Source: Thermoproteota archaeon
Lineage (GTDB): Archaea > Korarchaeota > Korarchaeia > B14-G2
Direction: 5' to 3'
NCBI GenBank assembly: GCA_003661385.1
Contig: QMWA01000068.1
Location: forward strand, 1-8,301
Length of the DNA: 8,301 bases
The notes beneath the pieces were generated by a model, which was not told the origin of the DNA, searched no databases, and saw only the letters and a program-made list of their open reading frames with translations. Below, one piece after another: positions 253-8,301 of this stretch (the stretch's first letter is position 1; each line of letters begins with the position of its first letter). The translations under genes were made by a program, and so were the position numbers.

Positions 253-1599
253 TCACCATCGAGGGCTAGCTTCAGCTGCTCGCTGAGCATAAAGCTTAGC
301 TCTCTCTATGAGATCCCTCTCAGCCTCCAGCATGCCTCTCTCCCTGGCGTGCCACCACGAGGCCTCTTGCTGGACTGCCTTCCGCAGCTCTCTTGCAGTC
401 TCCAGCACTCTAGCTGGCTTCGGGCTTCCCAAGTGGTCTTGCATCTCAAGTGCTTCACCTGGATCTACTTCTGGTAGGCTGGCTTCCCCCTCCTCTATGA
501 GCTTCTTCACCTCAGCATACGGCTTGTTCAGCTGCCTTGCTAGCTTGGCTGCTTTAGCTGCTAGCATGCAGCTCTGAGCTCTCGTGTACATCTCCTCTGG
601 TAGAGGCCTAGCTGACCTGAACAAGGCTGACAAGGCTTTCAGCGAGTACTCTAGTGCCTTAAAGCAGTCTACTATCGGCTTCTTCGTCTCCCTGCTGTCT
701 CTCTGGTACCCTGATGGCAGGGACTTTAGAGCTGTGTACATGTGGGTGTAGCATGCAAGCGTCCTCGCGGAAGCTGCCCTCAGGAGCTCAGCTACATCCG
801 GGTTCAGTTTAGCTGGTATGATCGAGCTGCCTTCGCCTGCTTTGACCTCAACTAAGCCAAGTGAGCTCCAGTTTACGAGGTCTTCAGCTAGCCTGCTGAG
901 CAGCAGCGCTAGTGCAGATGCCCATGAGGCAGCATACAGCTCTATGTGGCCTCTGGATGTGACAGCGTACAGCGAGTTCAGTACTGGCTTACTGAAGCCT
1001 AGTAGCCTGCTGGTCAGCTCCCTGTCTATAGGCCAGTACACACCTTGAGAAGCTCCAGCTCCGAGGGGGCACTTGTCAGCTGCCTTGTAGGCTGCTTTAG
1101 CTAGCTCCATCGTGTCAAGGATCCCCTCGGCATAGCACTGAAGCCAGAAGCCGAATGTCATGGGCATGGAGGGCATCTGGTGGGTGTAGCCTGGCATCAC
1201 GAGAGAGCAGTACTTCTCTGACAGGTCTAGCATCTCAGCGCAGCAGCTTAAGGCCCTGAGGGCTAGGGACACTAGCTTATGCCTGATGTATATCCTCATT
1301 CTAGCTGCTACCTCGTCGTTCCTGCTTCTAGCCTGGTGGAACCATAGTGAGCTTGCTCCAGCTGCCTCTCTGAGCTTAGCCTCTACCACCTGGTGTATGT
1401 CCATCCCCACCTTGACCTTGAGCCTTCCACCTCTGGCCTCCTCTAGGAGGGCTAGTAGGGCTTTTATCACCCTGGCAGCATCCTGCTCTGGTATGATGCC
1501 TCGCTCAGCTAGCATTATGTTGTGGGCTATGGTGTCCAGTATGTAGTACTCTGCTAGCTCCTCTTCTAGCTCAGCTTGCTCCTCATCTACTATGAGCAT
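253..1599 (-). CDS. argH: Argininosuccinate lyase family protein (divergent ArgH)
   Basis: This is a 448-residue member of the fumarase/aspartase superfamily. The classical enzyme is cytoplasmic, tetrameric and splits argininosuccinate into arginine and fumarate. Family hallmarks seen are RSRND (91-95), MPGYTH with the catalytic histidine at 140, a PLGAGA...PIDRE...LLGF block (178-202), and the signature GSSIIPAKLNP (257-267) with the catalytic serine loop, Lys264 and Asn266. Differences from typical ArgH: the segment after TH reads QMPSMP instead of LQxAQP, MPQKKNP has become IPAKLNP, and the usual YxRDLQEDK is YQRDSRETK (298-306). The N-terminus starts at what is normally about residue 20-25, without the WGGRF-type segment that contributes substrate contacts. 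No upstream in-frame start exists, because a stop lies inside the argG overlap. The ATG overlaps the end of argG by 17 bases, so the two are translationally coupled. ArgH family membership is secure; the substrate is less so. Confidence 0.85.
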   Translation of the reverse strand: MLIVDEEQAELEEELAEYYILDTIAHNIMLAERGIIPEQDAARVIKALLALLEEARGGRLKVKVGMDIHQVVEAKLREAAGASSLWFHQARSRNDEVAARMRIYIRHKLVSLALRALSCCAEMLDLSEKYCSLVMPGYTHQMPSMPMTFGFWLQCYAEGILDTMELAKAAYKAADKCPLGAGASQGVYWPIDRELTSRLLGFSKPVLNSLYAVTSRGHIELYAASWASALALLLSRLAEDLVNWSSLGLVEVKAGEGSSIIPAKLNPDVAELLRAASARTLACYTHMYTALKSLPSGYQRDSRETKKPIVDCFKALEYSLKALSALFRSARPLPEEMYTRAQSCMLAAKAAKLARQLNKPYAEVKKLIEEGEASLPEVDPGEALEMQDHLGSPKPARVLETARELRKAVQQEASWWHARERGMLEAERDLIERAKLYAQRAAEASPRW

Positions 1600-2785
1600 G
1601 CTCCTGCACCAGGTGTGCGGTAGTAGACTGGTAGGTGAACACCTCTGTGAAGCCTATGACCTGCTGGCTTGTGAACATGCTCTCCTCACCATACCTGTAG
1701 CCTAGTGCCGTGAGCTGGTAGGGGGAGTCTAGTGCGACCACCCTGCAGCAGCCCTTGTAGAGCTGTATGGTAGCTGAGCCTGTGACCTTCCTCTGCATCT
1801 CCTGGGCTGCTGCTTCGAGAGCCTTGAGCAGAGGCTCGTGGTATAGGCCGCTGAACACGAGGTTTGTCCACTCCTCCTCTAGCCTGGCCTTGAATGAGAG
1901 CTCTCTCCTGGTGAGCACTATGCTCTCCAGTGCCCTGTGAGCTGCTATGAGCGCGTATGCTGCCGGCGCCTCTATGCCTACTCTCCCCTTGATGCCTATT
2001 ATGCAGTCTCCAGTGTACTCTGCTAGCCCGAAGCCGTGGCTTCCACACTTCGTGTTGAGGGACTCGAGGAGCTCAGGGCCGCTTAGAGCTGAGCCATCTA
2101 GCGAGACAGGTGCCCCGCGCTCGAACTCCACCTCCACCTCCTCCGGGTGGCTTGGAGCTTGCTCGACGGGCTTCACCCAGCAGCACGCCTCAAGCCACTC
2201 CTCTAAAGGTATCTTGTAGCTTGGAGACGACATCTCTGGGCTGTAGACTGTACAGCCCCATAGGTTCCTTGTCGTAGAGAACCTCCTGCTGACTGGAGGT
2301 GGAGGGAAGCCCTTCTTCTCGAGGTACTCTGCCTCCTCTGCTCTGGTTGTGGAGAGCTCAGCTACTGGAGCTAGAACCTTCAGGTCTGGTGCTAGAGCTT
2401 TAAAAGCTGAGGTTAGCCTCACTATGTCGTTTCCAGCTGCTGTGCATCCGTGTGCTACTGCTTCAGCACCTACTTCTCTAGCTACCTTAACGGTCTCCTC
2501 TGCTATGATCAGCCTGTCTATTGGGCAGCATAGCGGGTACACCCCTTGGTATAGGGCGTTCATGGCCAGGGCTTTCGAGGCCATCTCCCATAGCCTGCTC
2601 TTGGCCTCAGCTGTGTAGTGCTCCTTGGCGCCCAGAGCGTATGCCTTCTCCTCTATCTTGCTGAGCTCTCTGCTGCTGTAGCCTCCTACATCTACTGTCA
2701 CAGTGTAAACCTCGTGGCTCTCTGAGAGCTTAGCTAGGACGAAGGACGTGTCTAGGCCTCCTGAGAACGCTAGAGCTACCCTCAT
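1583..2785 (-). CDS. argG: Argininosuccinate synthase family protein (divergent ArgG)
   Basis: This is a 400-residue protein, the normal family length. The classical enzyme uses ATP to adenylate citrulline and then adds aspartate, giving argininosuccinate. Seen are the N-type ATP pyrophosphatase loop SGGLDTS (8-14), the aspartate-binding HGCTAAGND (112-120, with Thr115, Asn119, Asp120), Arg123, and FSTTRNLWG (169-177). Several positions that normally contact citrulline are changed: YPLSTSLARP is YPLCCPIDR (83-91), Ser after NLWGR is Thr179, the VENR glutamate aligns with Gly259, and the tyrosine of the VYETP motif aligns with Ile271. The HGCTGKGND lysine is Ala. The C-terminal oligomerisation tail is also unusual. 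The ATG overlaps the GNAT stop (ATGA) and has a GGAGGT site upstream. ArgG family membership is clear. Whether the acceptor is free citrulline is open, since residue equivalences are from memory. Confidence 0.86.
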   Translation of the reverse strand: MRVALAFSGGLDTSFVLAKLSESHEVYTVTVDVGGYSSRELSKIEEKAYALGAKEHYTAEAKSRLWEMASKALAMNALYQGVYPLCCPIDRLIIAEETVKVAREVGAEAVAHGCTAAGNDIVRLTSAFKALAPDLKVLAPVAELSTTRAEEAEYLEKKGFPPPPVSRRFSTTRNLWGCTVYSPEMSSPSYKIPLEEWLEACCWVKPVEQAPSHPEEVEVEFERGAPVSLDGSALSGPELLESLNTKCGSHGFGLAEYTGDCIIGIKGRVGIEAPAAYALIAAHRALESIVLTRRELSFKARLEEEWTNLVFSGLYHEPLLKALEAAAQEMQRKVTGSATIQLYKGCCRVVALDSPYQLTALGYRYGEESMFTSQQVIGFTEVFTYQSTTAHLVQEHAHSR

Positions 2786-3486
2786 GATACCTCCACCATT
2801 ATGACTGGGCTGCTCCTCCTGTACCAGCCGACTAGGGCTAGTGTCCTCGTGGAAGCGTGCTCTGCCAGCTTCACCACGTCCTTGTGGGAGCTGGAGACTA
2901 GGAGCCTGCTCCCAGCCTTGAGCTCCTGAGCTCTCGAGATCTCCACAGCATCCTCTAGAGGAGGCATATCGTACCTGCTCATCAGCGTTTCAAGAGGGCT
3001 CTCTGGCATGCTGGCTTCACATGCTATGCTGTTCGGCATGTGCGTGTGGTGGAAGCCTGCTCCTATGACCTTCAGCTTGCCTCCAGAGTTCGATAGGTGC
3101 AGGTAGACTGGTATAGCCTCGTCTTCTACCTGGGTTATGAAGGTGAGCTTGCTCATGTGTGAGCATAGCATGCAAGCCAGCGCTAGAGTGGCTTTGCCTA
3201 GGCCTAGCTTCCTGTATGCTGGCGTGACCATCAGAGTCCATATGTGCACTGTACCTGGGTCAAGTGACCCACAGGCTCTCACCATCGAGACTACCTCGCC
3301 TCTATGGAGGAATCCTGCTGTGAACCCTGCTGTTATCCCGAAGTTCTGGTCTATCCATGGCTCAGTTGGCATCCCCTTCTCTCCATAGACCCTCTGGTTG
3401 ATGACGGTTATGTTCTCCTTGATCCATGCTGCAGCTTCTGGCAGGATGCCGTTAACAACTTTCAGCTCAAATGGGAGAGCATCCAA
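2782..3486 (-). CDS. GNAT-family N-acetyltransferase, first gene of the argGH operon
   Basis: This is a 234-residue protein from a TTG start. The acetyl-CoA binding motif A is visible as MVTPAYRKLGLGKATLA (about 86-102, RxxGxG at 92-97), preceded by strand-like HIWTLMV and followed by a cysteine-rich helix. That is the usual GNAT core (about 1-145). About 85 further residues after the core have no motif I recognise. The stop overlaps the argG start (ATGA), so it is cotranslated with argG and argH. This suggests a role in the same pathway. N-acetylglutamate synthase is one candidate, because some marine gammaproteobacteria carry a GNAT domain fused to ArgH. Acylation of another pathway intermediate is another. 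The start is doubtful: the frame is open for 47 more codons upstream with no start codon, and that stretch looks coding. An ATG at 3557 in another frame hints at an indel. The substrate cannot be told from sequence. Confidence 0.8.
   Translation of the reverse strand: MDALPFELKVVNGILPEAAAWIKENITVINQRVYGEKGMPTEPWIDQNFGITAGFTAGFLHRGEVVSMVRACGSLDPGTVHIWTLMVTPAYRKLGLGKATLALACMLCSHMSKLTFITQVEDEAIPVYLHLSNSGGKLKVIGAGFHHTHMPNSIACEASMPESPLETLMSRYDMPPLEDAVEISRAQELKAGSRLLVSSSHKDVVKLAEHASTRTLALVGWYRRSSPVIMVEVS
2789..2794 (-). promoter_or_regulatory. Shine-Dalgarno site of argG
   Basis: GGAGGT lies three bases before the argG ATG at 2785, inside the end of the GNAT gene. It supports that ATG as the true start and coupled translation through the ATGA overlap. 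The spacing is short. Confidence 0.6.
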
Positions 3487-3598: not shown

Positions 3599-5002
3599 TT
3601 ATTGTGTGAGGGCTTTCTCCACGTCTCTTAGGTCGAAGGCGAGGTAGCCTTCTTCCCTTAGCAGGCTCTTGCCGTCGACTTCTCTGGCTACTATCCCGTA
3701 GTATGCTCTCTCAGGCTCTAGCCTGGCTGCTTTGAGCTTCTCTGCCAGCTTGCTGAGGATTCTTCTGGCATCACTCAGCTTTAGAGAAGCCCACTTCACC
3801 TCAAAGGCGAGTAGCACACGCTTATCTAGGGTGTAGCCTAGTATGTCTATCTCGTAAGCTCCCTTGCTCGTCTTCCCCCACTGCCTGCTTAGCTTCACTG
3901 GCTTAGCTGGCAGCCTCACCTTAGCGAGCAGCTTCCTAGCTATTCTCTCGAATACCCAGCTCATGTAGCTGCTGTAGTCTCTCTTGATCTCCTCTAGGAG
4001 CTCAGCGGACCTCCACTCCTCTATCAGGTCTCTGTTGGGGTAGATGTAGCGGAACCAGAACCTCATGTAGCAGTCCTTTATGTAGTACAGCCTCTTCTTG
4101 GTCTTCGGCTTCTCTAACGCTGGTGTCTCAAATCCTACTAGGTCTAGGAGCTCTAGTGTATGCAGGTATCTTGAGACAGCAGACTTGTCTAGCCCAGTGT
4201 CGGATGCTATGTCTGTGACCCTCCTCTTCCCCTCTGATATCGACTTCATGATCATCATGTATGCCCTGGGCTCTCTGAGCTCTTGCCTAAGTAGGTACTC
4301 TGCCTCCTCGTAGAGGACTCCACCCTTGGTCAGATAGAGCTGCTCTACGTTCTCCCAGAAGCTTAGCTTGCTGTTGAAGAGCTTTAGGTAGGCTGGGACG
4401 CCGCCTGCTGCACCATATACGTGTAGCACCTCTTGGAAGCTGTACCTTGGGATGAACTCCCATACTGCTCTCAGTTCAAGCTCCCCAACCTTCCATTGGC
4501 CAGTTCTCCTGCCGTATAGTGGGCTCCTATACCCCTAGGACCTCTGTCTCCATCATCCCAACGCTGGATCCACATAGAACCAGCATGATGTCGCTTCTCC
4601 TTGAGAGGACTTCATCCCATGCTTTCCGGAGGGTTGAAGGTACACCAGGGTCTAGCTCTATTAGGTATGGCAGCTCATCTAACACCACTACAACCCTCTC
4701 TGGAGACTGCTTCCACTCAGCAAACTCCTTGAGGATGTCTTCTAGGTCTCGGAAGGGTATCCTGCTGAAGCTCTCTTTACCGAGGTAGGAGGCCATTTTA
4801 GCTGCTAGCTTCGACATGTTCTTCTCTACTGTAGTCCTCTCACATAGGAAGTACACGTAGGGCTTTCCTGACGTGAACTTGAGTAGGAGCTCGGTTTTCC
4901 CTATTCTACGCCTCCCATAGACTACCACCAGCTGAGCACCTGGCTTGCAGTAGCCTCCAGGAACTTGATCTCTCTTTCCCTATCAACAAACTGTTGACTC
5001 AT
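3599..5002 (-). pseudogene. Archaeal ATPase (AAA+ with C-terminal DUF234) broken by two frameshifts
   Basis: Read from ATG 5002 to the TAA at 3599-3601, this is a 468-codon gene, the usual family length, but in three pieces. Piece 1 (from 5002) gives FVDREREIKFLE, the family N-terminal motif, then hits a stop at 4924-4922. Piece 2 (about 4954-4527) gives YCKPGAQLVVVYGRRRIGKTE, with Walker A GRRRIGKT (about 30-37), Walker B VVVVLDE (about 105-110) and the LVLCGSSVGMME sensor strand, then a stop. Piece 3 (4534-3599) gives YRSPLYGRRTGQW, a winged helix (about 255-295) and a PD-(D/E)xK-like DUF234 end (EIDIL, then AFEVKW). The first shift is one base short (mod 3), and the second is one extra G in a GGGG run, so the frame is restored overall. 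All motifs survive, implying very recent inactivation, sequencing error, or recoding. Such ATPases are frequent, patchily distributed archaeal genes of poorly known role. Two separate shorter proteins are less likely. Confidence 0.85.
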
Positions 5003-5030
5003 GATTATGATAATCTGCTGTCAACTGTAT
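4988..5030. repeat. Imperfect inverted repeat spanning the carB stop and ATPase start
   Basis: The arms are 4988-4998 (AAACTGTTGAC) and 5020-5030 (GTCAACTGTAT). They match as inverted copies at 9 of 11 positions, with a perfect GTTGAC/GTCAAC core and a 21-base AT-rich spacer. The repeat covers the carB stop, the ATPase ATG and the edge of the TATA-like box, a plausible operator position. It may equally be chance. Confidence 0.35.
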
Positions 5031-8000
5031 ATAAGCCTGACTTGATGCAGCTGCCGCCGCGGAGCCTCCAGTACTCTCTTAGCTCAGCTAGCTTGAGGCC
5101 ATCAGAGGCCTTCACGGCTTCAGCTATGGCCTTAGCCTGCTCCAGTGTGGTTACAACTGGGATCCCCAGCTCAGCAGCCTTCCTGCGTATCTCCCTGCCA
5201 TCCTCTAGCATGTGAGAGTACTTCTCAAGTGTAGTGCTCCATGGTATGTTTATCACTAGCGCTATGCTGTCTCTGGCTAGGAGGTCAGCTATGTTAGGGT
5301 GCCTATCAGGCTCGCTGATCTTGTAGATCGTCTCAGCTGGCACCCCAGCTGATCTTAGGGCCTGTGCGGTGTGCTCTGTTGACAGTATCTTGAAGCCGCA
5401 CTCGTGTAGCACTCTGGCTACAGGCAGCACCTTTGACTTGAGCTCTAGGCCACCGACGGTGATCAGCACAGAGCTGCCCTTGAGGTCTATGCCTGAGGCT
5501 TTGAGGGCTTTCACATAGGCCTCATGCATGGATTCACCTAGGCAGCATACTTCTCCAGTGCTCATCATCTCGACTCCTAGCAGAGGGTCTACGCCAGGGA
5601 GCTGCCTGAAGCTGAACTGAGGCACCTTGACAGCGTAGTAGCGCATCTCTGGCGGCCCCTTGACGCCGCTGAACCCTAGGCTCCCCCCTAGGAGGACATC
5701 TACAGCTAGCTTCACGAGGTTGACTCCAGTCGCCTTGCTGACGTATGGCATTGACCTGCTAGCCCTCAGGTTGCACTCTATCACATAGACCTCGTCCTTC
5801 ACCAGGAACTGTATGTTTAGGGGGCCTCTGGCGTCTAGTGCCCTCGCTATCTTTAGGGTGTACTCTCTCATCCTGCTCACAGCCCACTCTGGTAGGGAGC
5901 ATGGTGGGATGACCATCGTCGAGTCGCCGCTGTGGACCCCAGCGTTCTCGATGTGCTCTATGACAGCCCCAATGTAGGCTGAGGAGCCATCTGAGACGGC
6001 ATCGACCTCAGCTTCCCTCGCCCCCATGATGAACCTGGATACGACGACAGGGTGCTCCTCAGAGACCTCAGCAGCCTGCTTCAGGTACCTCTCGAGCTCG
6101 CTTCTGCTGTAAGCTACCCGCATAGCTTGCCCACTCAGGACGTAGCTCGGCCTCACTATCACAGGGTACTTGCCTTCAGCGAACTCCAGAGCCTCCCTTA
6201 TGCTTGAGGCTGAAGCCCACTCTGGCTGGGGGATGCCAAGCGAGTCTAGCAGGCTGCTGAACTTCTCCCTGTCCTCTGCCATGTCTATGCTCTCAGCACT
6301 CGAGCCGACCAGCTTCACGCCAGCCTCGTGGAGAGGGACTGCGAGGTTGTTTGCGGTCTGCCCTCCGAAGGACACCACAACTCCCTCTGGGCTCTCGGCC
6401 TCATATATGTCGAGCACACGCTCCAGGGTAAGCTCCTCGAAGTAGAGCCTGTCACTTACATCGTAGTCTGTTGAAACAGTTTCAGGGTTGCAGTTCACCA
6501 CTATGACCTCAAAGCCGCGGGCTCTGAGCTCCCTGACAGCATTAACACAGCACCAGTCGAACTCGACTGAGCTACCAACCCTATAGCAGCCGCTGCCAAG
6601 CACCATGATCTTCCTACGCTTGCTCTCCTCTATGTCGCTCTCCACACCGCCATACGTCACATAGAGGTAGTTTGTCTGAGCAGGCCACTCTGCAGCTAGG
6701 GTGTCGATCTGCTTGACACAGGGCTTGACACCGAGCCTCTTCCTCAGCTCTCTGACCTCGCTTTCAGGTAGGCCAGTGCACATGGCTATCTGCCTATCTG
6801 AGAAGCCAAGCCTCTTAGCTTCCCTCAGCAAGCTGGGCTTCAAGCCCTCCTTCCTGAGCCTCTCCTCCAGCCTAACTATGTTCTCCACCTTACTGATGTA
6901 GAACTTGTCTATCTTAGATGCCTCAGCCACCTCGCCTATGCTAGCTCCAAGCTTCAGTGCCTCAGCTATCTCAAGGATCCTGTTGTCCTTTGGGGTCCTT
7001 ATGGATTCCAGGACCTCGGCTAGAGGCCTACCTGACAGCTTGACGCACGCTACTCCAGGGTACCCTTTGTCGAGCATCCTGAAAGCCTTCTGTAGGGCTT
7101 CCTCAAAGCACCTCCCGATGGCCATGACCTCGCCTATGCTCTTCATCCCAGTGCCAAGCTCCCTTGCTGCTCCAGGGAACTTCTCAAAGTCCCATCTCGG
7201 GACCTTGACCACAACGTAGTCTAGTGCAGGCTCGAACGCTGCTGTAGTGACTCCTGTGACCTTGTTCTTGAGCTCAGGGAGGGTGTAGCCTATGGCGAGC
7301 TTAGCAGCCACGTAGGCTAGAGGGTAGCCTGTAGCCTTGCTTGCTAGAGCTGAGCTCCTTGACATCCTAGCGTTGACCTCTATCACACGATACTCCTCCC
7401 CCTCAGGGTGCAGTGCAAACTGCACATTGCACTCCCCGACGACGCCCACAGCCTCAGCTACACGCAAGCTAGCTTGCCTGAGCATGTGGTACTCTCTATC
7501 AGTCAAGGTCTGGGATGGAGCTACCACTATGCTGTCCCCGGTGTGCACGCCCATAGGGTCAACGTTCTCCATGTTGCACACTGTGACACAGTTCCCAGCA
7601 TAGTCCCTTACCACCTCGTACTCGACCTCCTTCCAGCCCCCTAGGTACTCCTCAACCTGAATGGAAGCGGACTTGGCTAGAGCCCTCCTAGCTACCTCCC
7701 TGAGCTCCCCTCTAGACCACGCGACGCCACTCCCGCCGCCACCAAGCATGTACTGAGCCTTAACCACGACAGGGTAGCCTAGCTCATCAGCAGCTTCAAG
7801 AGCGTCCTCGACTGTGAAGGCCTTCCTAGACCTTGGAACAGGGATCCCAGCATCCTCCATCGTCCTTCTGAAGAGCTCCCTGTCCTCGGTTCTCTCTATA
7901 GCCTCCACTGAGCTACCCAGGACCCTGACGCCATGCTCCTCTAGCACACCAGATTTAGCTAAGGCTACTCCGCAGTTCAGTGCTGTCTGGCCTCCGAAGC

Positions 8001-8265
8001 CTAGCAGTATGCCCTGAGGCCTTTCCCTCTCAATGACCTTAGCAACATGCTCTGGGGTAACTGGAACCAGGTAGACTTTATCAGCCATAGTGGGGTCAGT
8101 CTGTATCGTAGCTATGTTCGGGTTCACTAGCACAGCTTCAATGCCCTCCTCTGAGAGGGCTTTGAGAGCTTGGCTGCCACTGTAGTCGAACTCCCCAGCT
8201 TCACCTATCTTAATGCCGCCACTCCCCAAGACTAGAGCTTTGCTCAGCCAGCTGAACTTAGGCAT
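5005..8265 (-). CDS. carB: Carbamoyl-phosphate synthase large subunit
   Basis: CarB makes carbamoyl phosphate from bicarbonate, ammonia passed from CarA, and two ATP, feeding arginine and pyrimidine synthesis in the cytoplasm. The 1086-residue protein has the full layout. The first synthetase half starts with KALVLGSGGIKIGEAGEFDY (about 9-28), with its ATP-grasp at about 125-390 and EVNARMSRSSALASKATGYP (about 296-315). A helical linker follows (about 400-545). The second half (about 552 on) has an ATP-grasp ending in IECNLRASRSMPYVSKATG. An MGS-like allosteric domain lies at about 930-1055. I chose ATG 8265 over the upstream in-frame TTG at 8283 because GAGGAGGG sits just before it and family proteins begin near there. 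The start overlaps the carA stop by 8 bases (ATGCCTAA), so subunits are translationally coupled. About 16 residues follow the usual C-terminal end. The motif opening the second half is GSGCYRVGSSVEFDW rather than GSGPIRIGQGxEFDY. Confidence 0.97.
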   Translation of the reverse strand: MPKFSWLSKALVLGSGGIKIGEAGEFDYSGSQALKALSEEGIEAVLVNPNIATIQTDPTMADKVYLVPVTPEHVAKVIERERPQGILLGFGGQTALNCGVALAKSGVLEEHGVRVLGSSVEAIERTEDRELFRRTMEDAGIPVPRSRKAFTVEDALEAADELGYPVVVKAQYMLGGGGSGVAWSRGELREVARRALAKSASIQVEEYLGGWKEVEYEVVRDYAGNCVTVCNMENVDPMGVHTGDSIVVAPSQTLTDREYHMLRQASLRVAEAVGVVGECNVQFALHPEGEEYRVIEVNARMSRSSALASKATGYPLAYVAAKLAIGYTLPELKNKVTGVTTAAFEPALDYVVVKVPRWDFEKFPGAARELGTGMKSIGEVMAIGRCFEEALQKAFRMLDKGYPGVACVKLSGRPLAEVLESIRTPKDNRILEIAEALKLGASIGEVAEASKIDKFYISKVENIVRLEERLRKEGLKPSLLREAKRLGFSDRQIAMCTGLPESEVRELRKRLGVKPCVKQIDTLAAEWPAQTNYLYVTYGGVESDIEESKRRKIMVLGSGCYRVGSSVEFDWCCVNAVRELRARGFEVIVVNCNPETVSTDYDVSDRLYFEELTLERVLDIYEAESPEGVVVSFGGQTANNLAVPLHEAGVKLVGSSAESIDMAEDREKFSSLLDSLGIPQPEWASASSIREALEFAEGKYPVIVRPSYVLSGQAMRVAYSRSELERYLKQAAEVSEEHPVVVSRFIMGAREAEVDAVSDGSSAYIGAVIEHIENAGVHSGDSTMVIPPCSLPEWAVSRMREYTLKIARALDARGPLNIQFLVKDEVYVIECNLRASRSMPYVSKATGVNLVKLAVDVLLGGSLGFSGVKGPPEMRYYAVKVPQFSFRQLPGVDPLLGVEMMSTGEVCCLGESMHEAYVKALKASGIDLKGSSVLITVGGLELKSKVLPVARVLHECGFKILSTEHTAQALRSAGVPAETIYKISEPDRHPNIADLLARDSIALVINIPWSTTLEKYSHMLEDGREIRRKAAELGIPVVTTLEQAKAIAEAVKASDGLKLAELREYWRLRGGSCIKSGLYTVDSRLS
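5026..5036 (-). promoter_or_regulatory. TATA-like promoter of the ATPase gene, inside carB
   Basis: The minus strand reads GCTTATATACA, a good archaeal TATA-box match, in the last codons of carB. Its centre (about 5031) lies about 29 bases before the ATPase ATG at 5002. Transcription would then begin within a few bases of that ATG, giving a leaderless mRNA, consistent with the lack of a Shine-Dalgarno site there. Confidence 0.55.
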
Positions 8266-8301
8266 GTAAGACCCTCCTCGCAAACATGTCGAAAACGAAG
8301 C
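8258..8301 (-). CDS. carA: Carbamoyl-phosphate synthase small subunit, C-terminal end only
   Basis: The last 13 codons before a TAA at 8260-8258 read FVFDMFARRVLHA. This fits the CarA C-terminus, which usually ends in a motif like PLFDHFIELI after the PGP segment. It overlaps the carB start by 8 bases, the usual carAB arrangement. CarA is the glutamine amidotransferase subunit that delivers ammonia to CarB. The rest lies beyond the right edge, so the call rests on a short match plus its position. Confidence 0.7.
   Translation of the reverse strand, partial: FVFDMFARRVLHA
8272..8279 (-). promoter_or_regulatory. Shine-Dalgarno site deciding the carB start
   Basis: GAGGAGGG lies six bases before the ATG at 8265, an ideal spacing. 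It sits within the end of carA and favours this ATG over the TTG at 8283, which lies upstream of the site. Confidence 0.75.

Follow-up and report, generated by a model that had tools for sequence, protein, structure and literature searches.

In human argininosuccinate synthase (ASS), citrulline is contacted by Tyr87, Asn123, Arg127, Ser189, Glu191, Glu270 and Tyr282, and Glu191 and Glu270 rank with the sites least tolerant of substitution; the enzyme carrying either Glu191Gln or Glu270Gln is reported to be inactive on citrulline (PMC13289927). Two bacterial groups make arginine by N-acylated routes, in which N-acetyl- or N-succinylornithine is carbamoylated. In Xanthomonas, ArgE deacetylates acetylcitrulline (PMC1865377), and in Bacteroidota succinylcitrulline is most likely desuccinylated (PMC7311316). 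The Bacteroides argininosuccinate synthase (ArgG) BT3760 has genetic support for a role in arginine synthesis, and GapMind lists Bacteroides ArgG as a moderate-confidence candidate with <40% identity to any characterized enzyme (PMC7311316). The subfamily to which the Xanthomonas protein belongs is already known as an annotation (NF003385); the archaeal protein described here, judged by its sequence, is outside the known members and has a residue combination of its own. In the open-licence literature searched, no description was found of the pocket difference or of a link to N-acyl pathways.

The window, meaning the whole stretch of DNA analyzed, is an entire contig of 8301 bp (G000:C68) from an archaeal genome of 1.74 Mb in 206 contigs that is 91% complete. 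The genes of interest all lie on the (-) strand: carB, an ATPase_2/DUF234 gene in two pieces, a GNAT-family acetyltransferase gene, argG and argH, with the last three forming overlapping intact ORFs. The argG homologue (1583..2785, (-) strand) is a single intact ORF that encodes 400 aa from an ATG start. Its product is matched over its whole length by PF00764 and PF20979, both above cut-off, matches PDB entry 4u7j (E 9e-60) and scores 320 bits with the ArgG model TIGR00032 (cut-off 268), although it falls below the cut-off of several ArgG models. The predicted structural model gives Z 37-38 against Thermus, human and Legionella ArgG, with low confidence in pocket loop 257-267. As read from its translation, the protein is a full-length member of the argininosuccinate synthase family that departs from the canonical citrulline contacts.

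Downstream, the argininosuccinate lyase homologue ArgH (253..1599, (-) strand; 448 aa) overlaps the end of argG, is diverged and scores below the argH curated cut-off. It carries Arg303, Ile261 and Ser144 in columns that hold Gln, Met and Ala in 32/32 other ArgH, a pattern that fits either co-adaptation or general divergence. A loss of N-terminal substrate residues in ArgH was also considered, and this idea was weakened by the retention of an acid at the Asp column and by the absence of the Ser in relatives with canonical ArgG as well. Upstream, the GNAT gene (2782..3486, (-) strand; TTG start) overlaps the start of argG by 4 nt, and a search of 197 other archaeal genomes gave no relative of its product at E 0.001. 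Homology to the GNAT that precedes Bacteroidota argG is not detectable despite the like adjacency. The large subunit of carbamoyl-phosphate synthase, CarB (5005..8283, (-) strand; 1092 aa), is 65% identical to that of another archaeal lineage (G139) versus ~60% for class relatives, whose matches stop near residue 930; carB may thus have been acquired by horizontal transfer. Two ORFs that separate carB from the GNAT gene (3599-4429 and 4527-4928, both on the (-) strand) correspond to an archaeal ATPase_2/DUF234 protein whose gene looks broken or frameshifted.

Human residue numbers were placed on the alignment by motif. The ArgG of the window keeps human Tyr87, Asn123 and Arg127 together with the ATP and aspartate motifs (SGGLDTS and human Thr119, Asn123 and Asp124). 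At the columns of human Ser189, Glu191, Glu270 and Tyr282, computed alignments place Thr179 (codon 2249..2251), Tyr181 (2243..2245), Gly259 (GGA, 2009..2011) and Ile271 (ATA, 1973..1975), respectively, all on the (-) strand. Glu270 is taken to be the human contact that holds the alpha-amino group of citrulline. An earlier note had proposed an altered citrulline pocket with intact ATP and aspartate sites. Its main point stands: SGGLDTS, Tyr83, Thr115, Asn119, Asp120, Arg123 and Ser170 are all present, the equivalences given for Thr179, Gly259 and Ile271 are reproduced, and four of the seven citrulline contacts are not conserved in place. The note missed Tyr181 and overstated the loss of a serine at Pro88 (codon 2522..2524, (-) strand). 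Proline is indeed unusual in this column (human Ser92), but serine is not the archaeal norm, and most archaeal ArgG have alanine there.

The first comparison set comprised 63 other ArgG, mostly archaeal. In this set the Glu270 column holds E in 63/63, the Tyr282 column Y in 60/63 and F in 3/63, the Ser189 column S in 57/63, T in 3/63 and A in 3/63, and the Glu191 column E in 60/63. The Ser92 column holds A in 51/63 and S in 12/63, which leaves only the proline itself as odd. Altogether, the ArgG of the window is altered at 17 of the 70 columns that are at least 95% conserved in this alignment, and many of these changes occur identically in a separate clade, so the pocket change is more than chance. 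Two further positions deserve attention. Ala117 (codon 2435..2437, (-) strand) occupies the column of human Lys121, in the motif GKGND. Asp90 (codon 2516..2518, (-) strand), in the column of human Ala94, is a candidate compensating acid: the column is acidic in all variant-clade ArgG compared and small in canonical ArgG, and in the predicted model position 90 lies at a helix start, next to the Ser92 contact.

In the set of 63, the three exceptions all belong to a single archaeal family, f34. No genome was recovered with a strict DNA pattern for the Gly270 segment, a zero that is uninformative, as the pattern missed even the genome of the window because Ile271 is coded by ATA. A pattern for the changed GKGND motif (GAGND), scanned over 394 archaeal genomes, recovered the window together with five genomes of f34 and one of f112, and a search of plasmid records with an f34 protein matched ArgG from Xanthomonas sacchari and Bacteroidota. 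The seven bacterial variants (six Bacteroidota and one Xanthomonas) share Gly at 270 with the window, and their position 282 is Phe and position 191 is Ser, Cys or Gly; all six archaeal variants keep Glu270 and pair Phe at 282 with Ser at 191. Residues 191, 270 and 282 are all kept in ArgG from Arthrobacter, Thermomicrobium, Sphingomonas, Monoglobus and Staphylococcus and in canonical archaeal ArgG. Across the clade, Lys121 is also replaced by Ala or Met, Arg272 by Thr, Glu or Cys, and Ala94 by Asp or Glu.

In a tree computed after removal of the pocket columns, with three f34, one Xanthomonas and three Bacteroidota proteins as variant members, the ArgG of the window and these seven form one clade with support of 100/98. 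The window protein is the outermost branch of this clade, and its exact place is unsure given the long branches of the window, Xanthomonas and Bacteroidota proteins; the f34 branches are not long. Xanthomonas and Bacteroidota are grouped at 84/70. ArgG from other genomes of the same phylum is canonical where inspected.

Clade members sit in arginine operons, and these differ in the carbamoyltransferase step. In Xanthomonas and two annotated Bacteroidota records, the argG operon also encodes a deacylase and an N-acetylornithine carbamoyltransferase, and the Bernardetia and Xanthomonas carbamoyltransferases exceed the curated NF003384 cut-off; for the remaining Bacteroidota, the source for the N-acyl route is published work on the phylum (PMC7311316) rather than these records. 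In f34, the three loci that were read contain argG, argH, argC, argJ, argB, argD and argF, and all five f34 genomes with variant ArgG have an ornithine carbamoyltransferase (OTC) above cut-off, which gives an ordinary OTC above the curated cut-off in 5/6 archaeal variants. In the f112 genome (G300), no OTC was seen and one weaker transcarbamylase match was the only candidate, which has no bearing on the Gly270 correlation. The arginine operon of this genome (L157 6125-7384 (+)) encodes an acetylglutamate kinase with a C-terminal extension that, judged by eye, is possibly a GNAT domain as in the Xanthomonas NAGS-K.

Gly270 thus occurs in the N-acyl lineages and the window, with Glu270 kept in archaeal members that have an ordinary OTC, as would be predicted if an N-blocked substrate were accommodated by Gly270. 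This match counts as a single independent event, or two at the most, because the two bacterial lineages are grouped in the tree, and the losses of Glu191 and Tyr282 need no N-blocked substrate because members with ordinary OTC share them. Since deacylation is placed at the citrulline stage in Xanthomonas and Bacteroidota, the Gly270 ArgG of these organisms would see free citrulline. No report of N-acylcitrulline being tried on a Gly270 ArgG was found in the open-licence literature searched.

In the genome of the window, one OTC is encoded on another contig (G000:C18) and scores 336 bits against a cut-off of 281. It keeps the FxKxSTRT lysine, the ornithine-binding Asn, DxxxSMG (as DTWFSMG) and the HC motif, with a shifted SMG loop and HCQPWFLG where HCLPAHRG is expected. 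Loss of its ornithine contacts was entertained and dropped, as alignment shows that Lys53, Asn167, Asp231, SMG and the Cys are kept. This OTC type is seen in the phylum (L107 9630-10592 (-); L067; L184; L186), with HPLQ, GDGxANTxHSL and HCQPWFLGQE replacing HPCQ, GDGNN and HCLPAHRGEE, and it occurs in relatives that include one genome without a detected ArgG (G025) and others without LysW above cut-off. No N-acylornithine carbamoyltransferase was found in the genome (91% complete), in which only the OTC and PyrB were detected; the same model would see the Xanthomonas and Bernardetia enzymes (192 and 148 bits). LysZ, LysW, LysX, LysJ and LysK are encoded on a further contig (G000:C127) that ends in a LysY fragment, and the LysW cluster with LysY can supply what is needed to make ornithine on a carrier protein.

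The ArgG of the window is probably the argininosuccinate synthase of this organism's arginine biosynthesis, acting on free citrulline through a differently built site. The enzyme would join citrulline and aspartate at the expense of ATP and pass argininosuccinate to the adjacent ArgH. Its ATP and aspartate chemistry would be ordinary, and its citrulline site appears to have been rewired across the clade. The acid at position 90 may help to replace Glu270 in holding the alpha-amino group, and free citrulline is the presumed substrate. This account is favored by the whole-length family match, the single copy, the neighboring carB and argH, the arginine operons of clade members, the OTC with its ornithine-binding motifs and a LysW/LysX/LysJ/LysK cluster that can supply ornithine. 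It is weakened because replacement of human Glu191 or Glu270 by Gln is reported to abolish activity, and the Gly270 pattern and the odd ArgH also count against it. The acceptor might instead be an N-blocked citrulline, as the earlier note had suggested: N-acetyl- or N-succinylcitrulline in Xanthomonas and Bacteroidota, and LysW-gamma- or another N-acylcitrulline in the archaeon. Gly259 would then remove a charge and make room at the site of the free alpha-amino group, and deblocking would come later. Gly270 in 7/7 ArgG of N-acyl pathways and in the window, against Glu270 in 6/6 archaeal variants, speaks for this reading, and the LysW cluster, the diverged ArgH and the GNAT directly upstream of argG are also in its favor. 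It is nevertheless unlikely, as the sole OTC of the genome retains its contacts to ornithine's free amine and carboxyl, the same OTC type occurs in relatives without LysW above cut-off, deacylation is put at the citrulline stage in the bacterial systems (PMC7311316, PMC1865377), the GNAT is unrelated by sequence to its Bacteroidota counterpart, and no N-acylornithine carbamoyltransferase was found in this genome. A stronger form, in which ArgG across the clade, including that of the window, joins aspartate to N-blocked citrulline, and in this archaeon to LysW-gamma-citrulline, with the carrier kept through ArgG and ArgH until LysK frees arginine last, is distinctly improbable.

The remaining alternatives place the protein outside arginine synthesis or treat its changes as uninformative. 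ArgG and ArgH could act on another ureido compound, for example to form a different guanidine, given that both the pocket and ArgH are unusual and that new substrates are known for other ArgG homologues, for instance ArtA (PDB 9leh, 9lei). Such a role is very unlikely because argG and argH are neighbors of carB and form the sole ArgG/ArgH pair found, and a family search of the genome (91% complete) gave no second ArgG copy; ornithine-pathway genes and OTC are also present in the genome, and clade members lie within arginine operons. Mis-binning of the contig, which would make the OTC, the LysW cluster and the single-copy context inapplicable to argG, could explain why CarB is closest to another archaeal lineage. 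It has slightly less to recommend it still, as tetranucleotide composition and codon usage agree with those of the bin's LysW and pyrimidine contigs, and LysW, LysX and LysZ from the LysW contig are most like those of same-class relatives among the loci compared. Contamination is accordingly not favored; the OTC contig, which carries ribosomal-protein genes, differs more in composition, and its OTC is closest to class relatives. Decay or relaxed constraint, which would make the changed contacts meaningless, could account for the long branch and the scores below several model cut-offs. It is the most improbable of these explanations, as the GNAT, argG and argH ORFs are intact and overlapping, the ATP and aspartate motifs are kept, and the same columns are changed, often to the same residue, in distant functional ArgG.

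A whole arginine-making clade thus lacks residues that are regarded as essential for human and model ArgG to bind citrulline. The canonical contacts define canonical ArgG rather than the whole family because they are missing in ArgG accepted as functional (Xanthomonas, Bacteroidota). Either ArgG has a second way to hold citrulline, or argininosuccinate arises in some organisms in an N-acyl or carrier-bound form; were the carrier-bound reading true, it would add a new order of steps to arginine synthesis. The link between Gly270 and N-acylornithine carbamoyltransferase lends itself to direct tests in Xanthomonas and Bacteroides and has consequences for argG annotation.

Among known systems, the Xanthomonas-type ArgG (NF003385 / PRK04527) shares with the window Gly at 270, Thr at 189, Asp at 94 and the loss of Glu191, Tyr282, Lys121 and Arg272. 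The window protein is 37% identical to it, has Ile rather than Phe at 282 and Tyr at 191, and scores 314.2 bits with NF003385 against a cut-off of 603, compared with 822.7 for X. sacchari ArgG. Xanthomonas also has an N-acetylornithine carbamoyltransferase and an acetylcitrulline deacetylase beside argG, whereas the carbamoyltransferase was not detected in the genome of the window. The Bacteroidota ArgG of the N-succinyl route (BT3760 type) has an almost identical GDxIIGIKGRVG(F/I)EA segment, Gly at 270 and a GNAT directly upstream; identity is 30-33%, the GNATs are not detectably homologous and no succinylornithine carbamoyltransferase was found in this genome. The f34/f112 variants (G176, G346, G378, G160, G297, G300), three of which were placed in the tree and share the clade of the window, likewise have DR for ARP, GAGND for GKGND, Thr189 and no Glu191, with Phe for Tyr282. 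Unlike the window protein they keep Glu270, f34 has ordinary OTC, and the three fully read operons carry argJ. Nitrile synthetase ArtA (9leh, 9lei) has the ArgG fold in common but is more distant (24% identity) and performs different chemistry. Canonical ArgG (Thermus, human, E. coli and same-phylum archaea) has the fold, SGGLDTS, Tyr87, Thr119, Asn123, Asp124, Arg127 and Ser180 in common with the window protein at about 24-47% identity, and differs from it in retaining Glu191, Glu270, Tyr282, Lys121 and Arg272.
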